Shown in pieces: positions 14,344-19,503 of a DNA stretch of 64,000 nt. The DNA is from an uncultured beta proteobacterium. GTDB taxonomy: Bacteria > Pseudomonadota > Gammaproteobacteria > Burkholderiales > Burkholderiaceae_C. The stretch lies in NCBI GenBank assembly GCA_903905735.1, contig CAIVHU010000033.1:1-64000 (forward strand). Direction: 5' to 3'. The notes beneath the pieces are model-generated. The model had not been told where the DNA came from. It saw only the letters and a program-made list of their open reading frames with translations, and made no database searches. The translations under genes and the position numbers were made by a program. The first letter of the stretch is position 1. Each line of letters begins with the position of its first letter.

Positions 14344-16257
14344 TCAAACGTTTGATTTGCGAGCGACGTCGGCTGACAATTTCTGCGAGAAATCTTCCAG
14401 AGACATCACTCCAAGGTCTTGACCACCTCGGGCGCGCACTGCGACAGCGCTTGACGCCATCTCTTTGTCGCCAATAACGACCAGATACGGCACTTTTTGC
14501 ATCGAATGCTCGCGTATTTTATACGTGATTTTCTCGTTGCGCAGGTCTGACTGCACCCTAAACCCTTGATTTTGCAGCGTTTTGACCACGTTTTTGGCGT
14601 AATCGGCCTGTGCATCGGTGATGTTGAGGACCATCACCTGCACCGGTGCCAGCCAGGCGGGCAAGGCCCCGGCGGTTTCTTCAATCATGATGCCGATGAA
14701 GCGCTCCAGACTGCCAACGATGGCGCGGTGCAGCATGACCGGGCGGTGACGGGCACCGTCTTCACCCACAAATTCGGCGTCCAGACGCTCGGTCATGAAG
14801 AAATCGACCTGGATCGTGCCGCACTGCCACTGACGACCAATGGCGTCTTTCAGGGTGTATTCGATCTTGGGGCCGTAGAACGCACCCTCGCCCGGCGAGA
14901 TTTCAAAATCGCAACCGGACCGGCGCAGGCTCTCGATCAACGCGTGTTCGGCCTTGTCCCAGGACTCGTCGGAGCCAATGCGTGCGTCGGGGCGGGTGGC
15001 GACTTTGTAAATGATGTTGTTGAAGCCAAAGTCTTTGTAAACCTTTTGCAGCAGCGTGGTGTAGGCCACGCACTCGTCGAGGATCATGTCTTCGGTGCAG
15101 AAAATGTGGCCGTCGTCCTGCGTGAAGGCACGCACGCGCATGATGCCGTGCAAGCCGCCGGTGTGCTCGTTGCGGTGGCACTGGCCGAATTCGCCGTAAC
15201 GCAGCGGCAGGTCGCGGTAACTCTTGATGCCCTGCTTGAAGATCAGGATGTGGCCCGGGCAGTTCATCGGCTTCAAAGCGTAGTCGCGCTTTTCCGACTC
15301 GGTGGTGAACATGTTGTCGCGGTATTTGTCCCAGTGGCCGGTTTTCTCCCACAAGCCTTTGTCCAGAAGCTGCGGGCCTTTGACCTCTTCGTAACCGTTG
15401 TCACGGTACACCTGGCGCATGTACTGCTCCACCGCCTGCCACACGGCCCAACCCTTAGGATGCCAGAAAACAGTGCCCGGAGAATGCTCATCGATGTGAA
15501 ACAGGTCCAGTTCGCGACCGAGTTTGCGGTGGTCGCGCTTTTCGGCTTCTTCGAGCATCTTCAGGTGCTGCGCTAGGTCTTCCTTGGTGGCCCAGGCGGT
15601 GCCGTAGATGCGCTGCAGCATCTCGTTTTTGTGGTCGCCGCGCCAGTAGGCACCGGCCACTTTCATGAGTTTGAAGTGTTTGAGCTTGCCGGTGCTGGGC
15701 ACGTGCGGGCCACGGCACAGGTCTTCAAAGGCGCCTTCACGGTACAGACTCACGTCTTCGCCCGCCGGAATGCTGGCGATGATTTCGGCCTTGTAGTGCT
15801 CGCCCAGGCCCTTGAAATAGGCCACAGCCTCGTCGCGTGGCAACACGCGGCGGGTTATGGGTTCATCCTTGTTGGCGAGTTCGGTCATGCGCTTTTCGAT
15901 GACGGCCAGATCATCCATGGTGAATGGCCGCTCGAACGCGAAGTCGTAGAAGAAGCCGTTTTCGATCACCGGGCCGATGGTGACCTGCGCTTGCGGGAAC
16001 AGTTCCTTCACCGCGTAAGCCAGCAAGTGGGCGGTGGAGTGGCGAATGACCTCCAACCCCTCGGCATCTTTAGCGGTGATGATGGCGAGCTTGGCATCGG
16101 CGTCGATCACATAGCTGGTGTCCACCGTCTTGCCATTGACCTTACCAGCCAGAGCGGCCTTGGCCAGGCCAGCGCCGATGGAAGCGGCCACGTCGGCCAC
16201 GGTCACGGCAGCGGGGTAGTCACGTTGCGAGCCGTCAGGGAGCGTAATTTGAACCAT
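14344..16257 (-). CDS. thrS: Threonyl-tRNA synthetase
   Basis: The 637-residue class II enzyme that charges tRNA-Thr. Domains in order: TGS (1-62), the second additional/editing domain with [10 protein letters not shown] (about 76-85) and the CRGPHV motif near 183, the catalytic core with the zinc-site MNCPGH segment and motif 2 ([10 protein letters not shown]), motif 3 ([17 protein letters not shown]), and the anticodon-binding domain from about 535. It is the first gene of the thrS-infC-rpmI-rplT-pheST-ihfA operon. The ribosome binding site is weak. A terminator-like hairpin 30 bases upstream and a Thr-rich leader peptide suggest control by transcription attenuation. Confidence 0.97.
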
Positions 16258-16286
16258 GATGATGAAAGAGTGAGGTGGATTGCGTC

Positions 16287-16316
16287 AAAAAAAAAACGCG
16301 GAACTGTCCGCGTTTT
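16287..16316 (-). terminator. Candidate attenuator hairpin before thrS
   Basis: AAAACGCGGA (16293-16302) and TCCGCGTTTT (16307-16316) form a perfect 10-bp stem with a 4-base loop, followed on the minus strand by a run of ten T residues. It ends only 30 bases before the thrS ATG, leaving no room for a promoter in between, so thrS must be transcribed through it. A separate terminator for aceA lies further upstream. Confidence 0.8.
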
Positions 16317-16364
16317 ACTATTTAAAATAGAGCACACTGTGCATAAGGCAAGCGGGCTACGGCC

Positions 16365-16403
16365 TTATTTCTTGTATATTTGCCGTGTCGTTCGCGGTGT
16401 CAT
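16365..16403 (-). CDS. Candidate thrS leader peptide
   Basis: A 12-codon reading frame, MTPRTTRQIYKK, with three threonine codons (ACA, ACG, ACA) among codons 2-6. A purine-rich stretch (GAGAAAGG) lies about 9 bases before its ATG. Its stop is 48 bases before the terminator hairpin ahead of thrS. This is the geometry of amino-acid operon leader peptides: ribosome stalling at Thr codons when charged tRNA-Thr is low would change RNA folding. I did not work out a convincing antiterminator; CCGCG within the leader resembles the right arm of the terminator and could compete for its left arm. Confidence 0.5.
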   Translation of the reverse strand: MTPRTTRQIYKK

Positions 16404-16498
16404 AACCAGCTGCCTTTCTCGCTCTTATCCAAATGATGAAGCGGCAATTTTAGCCGCAGCACCCAACCGGGCCCTTGACCCGCCAAAACAGCCGGGCG

Positions 16499-16536
16499 AA
16501 AAAAAGGCCAGCAACCCTTGCGAGCCGCCAGCCTTT
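16499..16536 (-). terminator. Intrinsic terminator of aceA
   Basis: On the minus strand AAAGGC (16536-16531) pairs with GCCTTT (16508-16503), with weaker inner pairing, and a T-run continues to 16499. It lies 45 bases after the aceA stop, so the thrS promoter is expected between here and the leader peptide at 16403. Confidence 0.65.
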
Positions 16537-16580
16537 GCCCCTCCTCGGGCTCTTCTTGGATGATTCTTGGTGACTTTGGC

Positions 16581-17909
16581 TTAGTGGAACTGTTCTTCTT
16601 CGGTGGAGCCGGTCAGCGCCTTCACGCTGGAAGAACCGCCCTGGATGACCGTGGTCACGTCGTCAAAATAACCGGCACCCACTTCTTGCTGGTGCGACAC
16701 GAAGGTGTAGCCCTTGTCGCGCGCAGCGAATTCCTGCTCCTGGACCATTTCAGTGTAGTGCTTCATGCCTTCGCCACGGGCGTAAGCATGGGCAAACTGG
16801 AAGGTGTTGAACCAGTTGATATGGATACCGGCCAGCGTGATGAACTGGTACTTGTAGCCCAGCGCGGCCAGGTCTTCCTGGAAGGAAGCGATCTGGCTGT
16901 CGTTGAGGTTTTTCTTCCAGTTGAAGGACGGAGAGCAGTTGTAGGACAGCATCTTGCCCGGGCAGGCGGCTTGCACAGCTTGCGCGAATTCGCGGGCAAA
17001 ACCAATGTCGGGCACGCCGGTTTCACACCACACCAGGTCGGCGTAGGGGGCGTAGGCGATACCACGGCTGATGGCTTGTTCCAGACCGTTCTTAACGCGG
17101 TAGAAACCTTCTTGGGTGCGCTCACCGGTCAGGAATGGCTTGTCGTTGGCATCGTAGTCGCTGGTGATCAGGTTGGCGGCTTCGGCGTCGGTGCGCGCCA
17201 GCACGATGGTGGAGACACCCATCACGTCAGCGGCAAAACGGGCGGCGATGAGCTTTTCGCAAGCCTCTTGCGTGGGCACCAGCACCTTGCCACCCATGTG
17301 ACCGCATTTCTTCACGGCAGCCAACTGGTCTTCAAAGTGCACACCAGCCGCGCCGGAGGCGATCATGTTCTTCATCAGCTCAAATGCATTGAGCACACCA
17401 CCGAAACCGGCTTCCGCGTCGGCCACGATGGGCAGAAAGTAGTCGATGAACTCAGGCGTACCTGGCTCGATGCCACGGCCCCACTGGATTTCGTCAGCGC
17501 GCTTGAAGGTGTTGTTGATGCGACGCACCATGGTGGGCACCGAGTCGTAGGCGTACAGCGACTGGTCAGGGTACATGGTTTCCGACGTGTTGCCATCGGC
17601 AGCGACTTGCCAGCCCGAAAGGTACACGGCTTCCAGGCCAGCCTTGGCTTGCTGCATGGCCTGCCCGGCGGTGATGGCACCAAAGGCGTTCACATAACCT
17701 TTTTTGGAGCCGCCGTTGATCTTGGCCCAGAGCTTTTCAGCGCCGTTTTTGGCCAGGGTGTACTCGGGTTGCAGGCTGCCGCGCAGGCGGACCACATCGG
17801 CGGCGCTGTAGCCACGTTTGACACCTTTCCAGCGGGGATTGGTGGCCCAGTCTTTTTCGAGGGCGGCGATTTGCTCTTGGCGGCTCAATGGCGCGGTGGG
17901 TTGGGACAT
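16581..17909 (-). CDS. aceA: Isocitrate lyase
   Basis: The 442-residue enzyme that cleaves isocitrate to glyoxylate and succinate, the first step of the glyoxylate shunt used on acetate, fatty acids and other C2 sources. The catalytic signature KKCGHMGGK lies at residues 200-208 with the active cysteine at 202; the substrate-binding SGWQVAADGN segment (98-107) and NCSPSFNW are also present. Length is normal for the short bacterial form. No malate synthase gene is adjacent. The upstream region carries two TCTTATATAAGA palindromes, likely regulator sites. Confidence 0.97.
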   Translation of the reverse strand: MSQPTAPLSRQEQIAALEKDWATNPRWKGVKRGYSAADVVRLRGSLQPEYTLAKNGAEKLWAKINGGSKKGYVNAFGAITAGQAMQQAKAGLEAVYLSGWQVAADGNTSETMYPDQSLYAYDSVPTMVRRINNTFKRADEIQWGRGIEPGTPEFIDYFLPIVADAEAGFGGVLNAFELMKNMIASGAAGVHFEDQLAAVKKCGHMGGKVLVPTQEACEKLIAARFAADVMGVSTIVLARTDAEAANLITSDYDANDKPFLTGERTQEGFYRVKNGLEQAISRGIAYAPYADLVWCETGVPDIGFAREFAQAVQAACPGKMLSYNCSPSFNWKKNLNDSQIASFQEDLAALGYKYQFITLAGIHINWFNTFQFAHAYARGEGMKHYTEMVQEQEFAARDKGYTFVSHQQEVGAGYFDDVTTVIQGGSSSVKALTGSTEEEQFH

Positions 17910-17985
17910 GAAAACACTCCTGAGTTGGTTGAATCTGGCCCCGGCAAACGACTTGGAATTATGGCCGGGTTGGAGTGAATTCTAA

Positions 17986-18029
17986 GTCTTATATAAGAGT
18001 TAAATTTAATCTTATGTCTTATATAAGAC
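17986..18029. promoter_or_regulatory. Paired palindromic operator upstream of aceA
   Basis: TCTTATATAAGA at 17987-17998 and GTCTTATATAAGAC at 18016-18029 are palindromes whose centres are 30 bp apart, about three helical turns. They lie 80-120 bases before the aceA start in an AT-rich stretch. This is the layout of a dimeric regulator binding twice on one DNA face. The regulator is not identified. Confidence 0.7.
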
Positions 18030-18171
18030 AATTATTTTTACCAATGAAATCATTGACTTATTTTCATATTTCTCGATACGAAACGATATTTTTCGATTCA
18101 AGAAAACATCAAAGCCCTTGACTCAATGAATTTCCCATGATGCGAAATCATGGTTTTCACATCATGAGAAA

Positions 18172-19503
18172 TCAAAACATCTCAGCGTAACGTTGCAACT
18201 CCCAAGCGCTCACGCTCTGGCTGTAGTCTTGCCACTCCTGGTTTTTGAGCGCGACGAACTCCTGGCAAAACGCCTCACCCACGGACTGCGTCAATGCCGT
18301 GTCCTGCGCCAGTGCTTGCAGTGCCGCACCAAGATCAGCGGGCAGGCGACCGGGCATCGGCGCGCCTGAGGCAAAGCGCTCGTACAAATCCTCAACGCAG
18401 GCGGCGGGCGCGGTCATGGCCTGGTCAATGCCATCAAGCCCGGCGGCCAGCGTGGCGGCAATCGCGGCATAAACGTTGCAAGAAGGATCAGACAGGCGCC
18501 ATTCCAACCGGCCAGCGACCGTGCGAATCAGGCAGGTGCGGTTGTTGTCGCCAAAGGCTTTCCAGACTGGCGACCAGGTGGTGCCAGAGGCGCTATGGCT
18601 CAGCGTCAGTCGTTTGTAACTGTTCACGGTGGGCGCGCACAGGGCCGCCAAAGCATCAGCGTGGTGCAACAAGCCCGCCACAAAATGGTAGCCATCGGCG
18701 CTGAGCAGCAGCGGGTCGGTGGTGTCGGTGAAGACGGCGCGGCCATCGGCATCCGTCAAGCTCAGGTGAAAGTGCAGACCGCTGCCCGGCGCACCGGCAA
18801 ACGGCTTGGGCATGCAGCTGAACACGCAGCCATGCTGCTCGGCCACGGCATGCGCGGTCAGCTTGAACAGCATGTAGCGATCTGCCGCGGCTAGCGCGTC
18901 GTCAAATTTGTAGTTGATCTCATACTGGCCACGGGCATCTTCATGGTCGATTTGCTGCAGCTCAAAGCCGAGTTGGGTCAGGGCGACGCGCATGTCGTCC
19001 AGAAAAGCGCGGTTGCGGTGGATGGCTTTCAGGTCGTAGGAAGGTTTGTCCAGACCATCTAGGGCATCGGCGGGCAACCACTGGCCGTCCGCGGTCTTTT
19101 TCAGCAGGAAGAACTCGGGCTCAATGCCGACCCACAGCGTCCAGCCACGCACTTTGAGCCGCTCCAACTGGCGTCTGAGCACCTGGCGTGAGTCAGTGGC
19201 CAAGGGCTCACCGCCAGCATAGCCATCACACACGGCGTGCGCCACACCGGGCATAAACGGCAAATCGCGCAACGTCTCTAGCTGCACCCGCCCGTAATAT
19301 TCGCTGCGCCTACCAAAGCGGCCCAAGCCGGTGCCCCAAATGCTGGGACCTGCAAAGCCCGCGCCGCTCTCAACCCATTCACGCAGGTTTTGAACAGGCA
19401 CCAGCTTGCCTTTGGCCACGCCGTGCAGATCGCAGAACTGGGTCAGGATGGAATGGATGCCGCGCGCCTGCAGGTCTGCGGCAATGGTCTCAAAATTATG
19501 CAT
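18172..19503 (-). CDS. Glutamine synthetase-family ligase (type III-like/GlnT-PuuA group)
   Basis: A 443-residue member of the glutamine synthetase superfamily. It has the N-terminal beta-grasp domain followed by the catalytic domain with GIEPEFFLL (about 125-133), the metal-binding GSGLHFHLSL and the NNRTCLIR arginine segment. The neighbours (aldehyde dehydrogenase, putrescine transporter, second glutamine-synthetase-like gene) suggest it glutamylates an amine, possibly putrescine, rather than assimilating ammonia; that is inference. It differs clearly from the gene at 28551, so the two may act on different amines or steps. The gene follows the aldehyde dehydrogenase gene across a repeat copy that may partly terminate transcription. 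Confidence 0.8.
   Translation of the reverse strand: MHNFETIAADLQARGIHSILTQFCDLHGVAKGKLVPVQNLREWVESGAGFAGPSIWGTGLGRFGRRSEYYGRVQLETLRDLPFMPGVAHAVCDGYAGGEPLATDSRQVLRRQLERLKVRGWTLWVGIEPEFFLLKKTADGQWLPADALDGLDKPSYDLKAIHRNRAFLDDMRVALTQLGFELQQIDHEDARGQYEINYKFDDALAAADRYMLFKLTAHAVAEQHGCVFSCMPKPFAGAPGSGLHFHLSLTDADGRAVFTDTTDPLLLSADGYHFVAGLLHHADALAALCAPTVNSYKRLTLSHSASGTTWSPVWKAFGDNNRTCLIRTVAGRLEWRLSDPSCNVYAAIAATLAAGLDGIDQAMTAPAACVEDLYERFASGAPMPGRLPADLGAALQALAQDTALTQSVGEAFCQEFVALKNQEWQDYSQSVSAWELQRYAEMF

Follow-up and report, generated by a model that had tools for sequence, protein, structure and literature searches.

A conserved threonine-rich leader before thrS in Burkholderiales as a candidate transcription attenuator

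Known leaders of synthetase genes and the thrS locus

The genes of aminoacyl-tRNA synthetases are controlled by several kinds of leader. In Firmicutes, thrS is under T-box control, which shares its target and its signal (the charging of tRNA-Thr) with the mechanism proposed here and differs from it by direct binding of the tRNA. In E. coli, the pheST leader peptide (pheM) mediates transcription attenuation of an aminoacyl-tRNA synthetase gene. Like the leader described below, it combines a peptide rich in the cognate residue with a terminator before a synthetase gene, but amino acid (Phe), gene (pheST) and organism (E. coli) differ, and the likeness is one of architecture, with no sequence relation expected. 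The enterobacterial leader thrL (Thr_leader in Rfam), which contains Ile and Thr codons, likewise pairs a Thr-rich peptide with a terminator and differs in its target, thrABC. The gene of interest here is itself controlled in E. coli by a system of another type: the excerpts of PMC3858243 describe hairpins of the thrS mRNA that are recognized by threonyl-tRNA synthetase (ThrRS), leading to repression of translation with no leader peptide. Finally, the main text of a survey of premature terminators uses hisS as an example of changes of sensing system for a single gene, and predicts attenuation by His leader peptides for Bacillus hisS* and hisZ (PMC2965389). These cases resemble ours in that leader-peptide attenuation acts on a gene of the synthetase family and in that sensing switches between lineages, and they are unlike it in amino acid (His) and in phylum (Firmicutes). 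Within that main text, the word "thrS" is absent and "threonyl" occurs once, for E. coli, and the mentions of thrS in the excerpts of a paper on leader-peptide annotation concern sequence correction (PMC2330054). Among the papers listed by our literature search, none concerned a thrS leader peptide in the order Burkholderiales. Leader-peptide attenuation is a known kind of regulation, of which thrS of this order, read as proposed here, is a new case.

The locus that we analyzed lies in a stretch of 64,000 nucleotides from an uncultured beta proteobacterium (contig CAIVHU010000033.1), hereafter the window. Its features are collected in Table 1, where the name thrS is the one that we presume from general knowledge of the family. 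An earlier note had described a 12-codon frame with three Thr codons in codons 2-6, followed after 48 bases by a perfect terminator with ten T residues. Direct reading bears out both statements: Thr occupies codons 2, 5 and 6, 48 nt separate the leader stop from the stem, and the hairpin (16316-16293) is a perfect 10-bp stem with a 4-nt loop. The distance of 30 bases given there between T run and thrS is correct to within a base (29 nt). The leader lies between thrS and the upstream gene aceA (16581-17909, minus strand), for which the same note had claimed a separate terminator. This claim stood in part: the terminator scan reports none, and by eye an imperfect hairpin with a T run can be recognized. 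The corresponding hairpin and T run at the end of aceA look better in congeners, for example in L014 (by eye). The leader presents several of the elements of a leader-peptide attenuator, namely a short and presumably translated ORF behind a Shine-Dalgarno-like sequence, a cluster of Thr codons and an intrinsic terminator.

Table 1. Features of the thrS leader and of the presumed regulated gene in the window
Feature	Coordinates	Strand	Basis and remarks
Leader ORF MTPRTTRQIYKK followed by stop	16365..16403	-	Sequence; ATG 16403-16401, 12 sense codons, TAA 16367-16365
Shine-Dalgarno-like GAGAAAGG of leader ORF	16413..16420	-	Sequence; 9 nt 5' of ATG
-10-like TAAAAT, presumed thrS leader promoter	16447..16452	-	Sequence; absent from promoter-scan output
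Region 1, CCGCGAAC within leader codons 3-5, able to pair with region 2	16390..16397	-	
Region 2, candidate antiterminator strand, CCGCTT in the window	16350..16355	-	
Region 3, terminator 5' arm	16307..16316	-	
Region 4, terminator 3' arm	16293..16302	-	
U tract, ten T, four of them inside the stem	16287..16296	-	
thrS, threonyl-tRNA synthetase, presumed regulated gene	14344..16257	-	ORF; ATG at 16257, 29 nt past T run

Taken alone, the hairpin is unremarkable: three terminator-like sites were found in 14800-18800 and 4.8 in shuffled sequences. Because shuffling does not lower the number of such sites, conservation had to decide. The promoter scan found no site before the leader, and its sole site (16288-16259) lies downstream and does not exceed chance (1 found, 1.3 expected). 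By eye, TAAAAT or close variants recur approximately 40-50 nt 5' of the leader start in relatives. Rfam scans of the window and ten relatives returned no Thr_leader, no T-box and no family for the element (Thr_leader is absent from the nine matches obtained at E up to 10 in window positions 16240-16520).

Two observations concern the neighborhood of thrS. The start codon of infC (window 14257, minus strand) is most likely an ATC located behind AAGGATT and not the TTG of the ORF list; E. coli infC uses an AUU start. In addition, a tRNA-Val(GAC) gene is located just 5' of thrS at many loci of the other families of the order and at some loci of other orders. ARAGORN confirms this gene at each of the 15 loci examined, all chosen for a visible tRNA (L242, L246-L248, L253, L255, L257, L335, L338, L342, L344; L265, L266, L268, L270).

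Conservation in the genus, family and order

Using the thrS ORF as query, matches were obtained in 60/60 related genomes, and the 30 best thrS loci from these 60 genomes, window included, form the same-genus set. In 12 of the 30 loci, the core GGTTATGACACCGCGAAC has its ATG, the frame ends in a stop and a CGCGG/CCGCG terminator precedes thrS; in one of these 12 (L023), the frame extends to 23 codons, past the usual place of the stop. The SD-like part AGAAAGGC is identical in 12/12 sequences of the same-genus alignment A1. An intact leader is missing in the remaining 18/30. By eye, the ORF is lost in L006, degenerate with a changed ATG in L027, and not recognizable in L012, L029 and L030; the hairpin behind the promoter is all that remains in eleven loci (L005, L007, L016, L017, L019-L022, L024-L026), and neither leader nor hairpin is present in L011 and L015. 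The leader element is often lost in the window's genus.

The hairpin kept by leaderless loci is G+C-rich by eye, both in these eleven loci and in L364, L366, L367, L369, L374 and L382. It mostly precedes T residues and lies at most some 40 nt from the -10-like box, and this near-start hairpin of leaderless thrS promoters may act as a 5' stabilizing hairpin. That many relatives retain a hairpin behind a -10-like box without a leader ORF would fit a structure that senses nothing, being a mere insulator terminator against read-through from aceA or a 5' hairpin, and the imperfect aceA-end hairpin of the window, unreported by the scan, points the same way. We consider this explanation very improbable, however: wherever the leader is present, it conserves the ORF, its stop and the joint change of region 2 with region 3.

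We built a covariance model (R1) from the 12 same-genus leaders. Among 299 genomes of the family, R1 finds a single match in each of 223, which represent 111 of 141 genera (window and three congeners included). thrS is directly downstream in all 90 loci read from R1 matches (L032-L121, which contain the window's own locus and two congeners again). The core with ATG is present with at most one substitution in 88 of these 90 loci; the start codon is lost in L044, and L051 carries two substitutions. We examined 20 of the 76 R1-negative family genomes and found thrS in 18. Two of these genomes keep the exact core ATGACACCGCGAAC (L368, L377) and two others a diverged leader by eye (L372, L378), the rest presenting a hairpin without a leader or neither of them. 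The misses of R1 are not all losses. A single in-frame stop codon interrupts the thrS match of L365, and another that of L372.

Searching named genomes for exact copies of the 18-nt core yielded at least 119 stretches, of which 80 are among the matches listed. In 78 of the 80 listed loci, tblastn placed thrS downstream, 127-310 nt from the core; in L187 it was found by reading frame, for a total of 79/80, and the sequence of L189 breaks off 47 nt after the start of the match. The listed carriers include Rhodoferax, Variovorax, Acidovorax and Polaromonas, then Massilia, Janthinobacterium and Undibacterium, and finally Cupriavidus, Paraburkholderia and Burkholderia, three groups that we take to represent Comamonadaceae, Oxalobacteraceae and Burkholderiaceae, respectively. 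Among the matches listed, the closest named thrS comes from Rhodoferax antarcticus (L130), with 94% identity. A model that covers the 5' part of the leader and uses sequence only matched 30/300 genomes of the order, presumably the betaproteobacteria of older taxonomy, and these belong to eight families. All 14 fetched matches of this model, weak ones included, precede thrS. Of 229 genomes sampled from the class, it matched three, all from the window's own family (the window being one of them). In one genus of the order, two genomes (G437 and G481) each possess two near full-length thrS-like genes, with identities to the query of 67% and 58%, and of 69% and 56%, respectively.

thrS was located in 199 loci, 179 of which present the core with at most one substitution, corresponding to 170 distinct leaders. 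The way in which these loci were chosen largely fixes codons 2-5, and the invariance of the leader is partly a selection effect. Frame 0 closes within 66 nt in 165/170 distinct leaders, compared to 36 and 44 for the other two frames, which were scored from just past the core. The peptide is 10-17 residues long in 153/170, and a terminator-like hairpin is located 3' of the leader in 169/170. Past codon 6, Thr is the commonest residue (219/1367 over the 170 leaders); codon 6, which is free of the core, encodes Thr in 144/170.

A second test was anchored on thrS, with loci fetched by the thrS protein, and searched for a frame with Arg(CGA)-Thr and a further Thr within four codons. Such a frame was found in 12/30 same-genus loci (0.5 expected from shuffles; window included), in 11/63 distinct loci of other families of the order (0.2 expected) and in 0/29 loci of other orders (0.1 expected); the pattern was devised after reading these loci, and the counts describe these loci against a chance level but do not amount to a blind test. 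Among the 52/63 other-family loci that fail the pattern, a few, such as L348, have a Thr-rich leader that it misses. Divergent leaders of other families include MQLNRTTTTS (L258), MFKRTTTTRISR (L352), MLKTDTTTLMISG (L348) and one with RTPTRTTTW (L318). We also tried a less specific scan, for ORFs rich in any one residue and followed by a terminator, in loci from other families of the order (14 of which were fetched by motif). It was set aside as a weak control in favor of the thrS-anchored test, with Thr-rich ORFs in 20/58 loci that have a terminator versus 19 for Arg-rich ORFs; one of its Thr matches (L338) overlaps a tRNA gene by sequence.

The reading proposed earlier depended on conservation of the frame and of its Thr codons, and both proved conserved: relatives from the same genus, from the rest of the family and from further families retain MTPRT(T), a stop in frame and the terminator, although 18/30 same-genus loci have no intact leader. 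The ORF, its Thr codons, its stop, the terminator and the position before thrS are conserved, and regions 2 and 3 change together across lineages.

We searched regions upstream of thrS for an operator of the E. coli type. Using a loose pattern with at most five substitutions, we found it in 18/29 loci of other orders of the class, which we take to be gammaproteobacteria; these are the best-scoring of 74 such genomes searched, and the pattern was written after reading them, which makes this count not independent. The same operator, an anticodon-arm-like hairpin immediately before the thrS start, was found in 0/121, 0/20 and 0/67 loci of the order (these sets repeat some genomes, and the sets of 20 and 67 amount to 76 distinct upstream regions, two of which are from the window's family). 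These counts argue against binding of the leader RNA by ThrRS, an E. coli-type autoregulation in which the short ORF would be incidental. E. coli thrS is controlled in this way according to the excerpts of PMC3858243, and the near invariance of the core in nucleotides, due in part to the selection of loci, is what RNA recognition could produce. Yet the frame-0 stop and the enrichment in Thr require translation as their explanation, and we regard binding by ThrRS as very improbable too. Also very improbable is that the nascent MTPRT peptide arrests the ribosome on another signal (drug or metabolite) than tRNA charging. MTPRT and its codons are almost constant in the leaders read, partly by motif selection, which would fit such an arrest, but the divergent leaders (MQLNRTTTTS, MFKRTTTTRISR, MLKTDTTTLMISG) retain Thr clusters without MTPRT and the enriched residue matches the regulated gene.

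Pairing and folding of the leader RNA

Attenuation would require an alternative partner for the terminator, and the strand directly 3' of the stop codon complements the terminator 5' arm. By eye, the letters of region 2 differ among lineages (CCGCGT, CCGCGC, GTTCGCG, GCCGCG, CTAGTCG, TCGAGG) and the partner arm or loop varies along with them. The congeners that share the terminator arm of the window read CCGCGT, relative to which CCGCTT in the window represents a G to T mismatch.

Across 169 leaders, the duplex of regions 2 and 3 has a mean energy of -14.65 kcal/mol with its own partner versus -11.92 for strand shuffles; it beats the mean of its own shuffles in 147/169 leaders and all 20 shuffles in 42. 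When partners were permuted among leaders, the mean was -13.40, and 0/5000 permutations were as low as the real value (phylogeny uncorrected). Permutations within the family gave 5/5000, and those of named genomes 0/5000. The own partner is better than the mean of swapped partners in only 112/169 leaders, and the permutation test gave no signal over the 12 same-genus leaders (1790/5000). In the same-genus alignment (12 sequences), the 2:3 helix pairs in 94.4% of cells versus 21-49% when slid. One of its pairs changes from U-A to C-G on both sides in three sequences; this double-sided change is shared with a pair of the terminator and may represent one event. The evidence for the antiterminator is mixed for the window's own genus. 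The duplex of regions 1 and 2 has a mean of -12.0 kcal/mol versus -9.9 for shuffles and is better than the mean of its own shuffles in 126/169 leaders; a ribosome that stalls at codons 5-6 would cover region 1.

We then folded the leaders with the ribosome footprint removed, assuming that it extends 12 nt past the A-site codon. Before the 3' arm exists, the share of the ensemble in which the 5' arm pairs with upstream sequence is 0.69 when the ribosome stalls at codon 6, 0.52 when it has reached the stop and 0.40 when no ribosome is present. In 110/169 loci, this share is higher under the stall than at the stop by over 0.1; in 11, it is lower by the same margin. When the sequence between codon 11 and the terminator is shuffled, the difference between stall and stop drops from 0.18 to 0.05 and that between stall and no ribosome from 0.29 to 0.05. 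In the window, whose region 2 reads CCGCTT, the states are alike (0.45 stalled, 0.46 at the stop, 0.40 without ribosome), and this copy of the attenuator may be weaker or drifting. Once complete, the terminator has a median probability of 1.00 in every state (means of 0.93 stalled, 0.99 at the stop and 0.98 without ribosome). Because the complete terminator dominates every state, switching must be kinetic.

We also considered two further structures and set them aside. The local fold at the leader stop, examined as a possible pause hairpin, does not surpass its dinucleotide shuffles (median z of 0.07), with 21/169 leaders below the 10th percentile of their own shuffles. A stem between the start region and the sequence past the stop is partly conserved, with mismatches at its center in several congeners, and it served as a scaffold for R1 only.

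Proposed mechanism and significance

Based on the conserved anatomy, the in-frame enrichment in Thr, the fixed place before thrS and the co-changing strands, the best reading of the element is attenuation. We propose that thrS is probably controlled by trp-type, ribosome-mediated transcription attenuation in response to charged tRNA-Thr, with a probability of roughly 0.8 judged from sequence and modeling. The threonine attenuator suggested by the earlier note is supported, the stalling mechanism being deduced from anatomy, co-change and folding. Translation of the leader, stalling, the switch and its signal are the parts of this mechanism that we infer.

The attenuator would tune thrS, and perhaps infC-rpmI-rplT-pheS as well if these genes are cotranscribed, to the supply of charged tRNA-Thr. 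When Thr-tRNA is ample, the ribosome would reach the leader stop and cover region 2, the terminator of regions 3 and 4 would form and transcription would end before thrS. When Thr-tRNA is scarce, the ribosome would stall at Thr codons 5-7 and cover region 1, leaving region 2 free. Region 2 could then pair with region 3, which would hold off the terminator and let RNA polymerase proceed into thrS. If the leader is not translated, region 1 would be expected to hold region 2 and the terminator to form.

A broader scenario is possible, and we offer it as a tentative and rather doubtful one. The order may have swapped the autoregulation of thrS by ThrRS on its mRNA for peptide-dependent attenuation. 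In this scenario, ACA CCG CGA ACT would serve both as the readout of charged tRNA-Thr and as an RNA strand constrained by pairing, and a separate second job of the hairpin at the 5' end of the thrS mRNA would be the reason why lineages that lose the peptide keep the hairpin.

The element adds a cis-regulatory RNA family that is not in Rfam 15, and the leader could report on inhibitors of threonyl-tRNA synthetase. thrS is the textbook case of a synthetase that represses the translation of its own mRNA, and many lineages of this order appear to use codon-dependent stalling instead. The E. coli-type sensor and the stalling sensor on the same gene offer a clear comparison for studying why lineages exchange one regulatory sensor for another.
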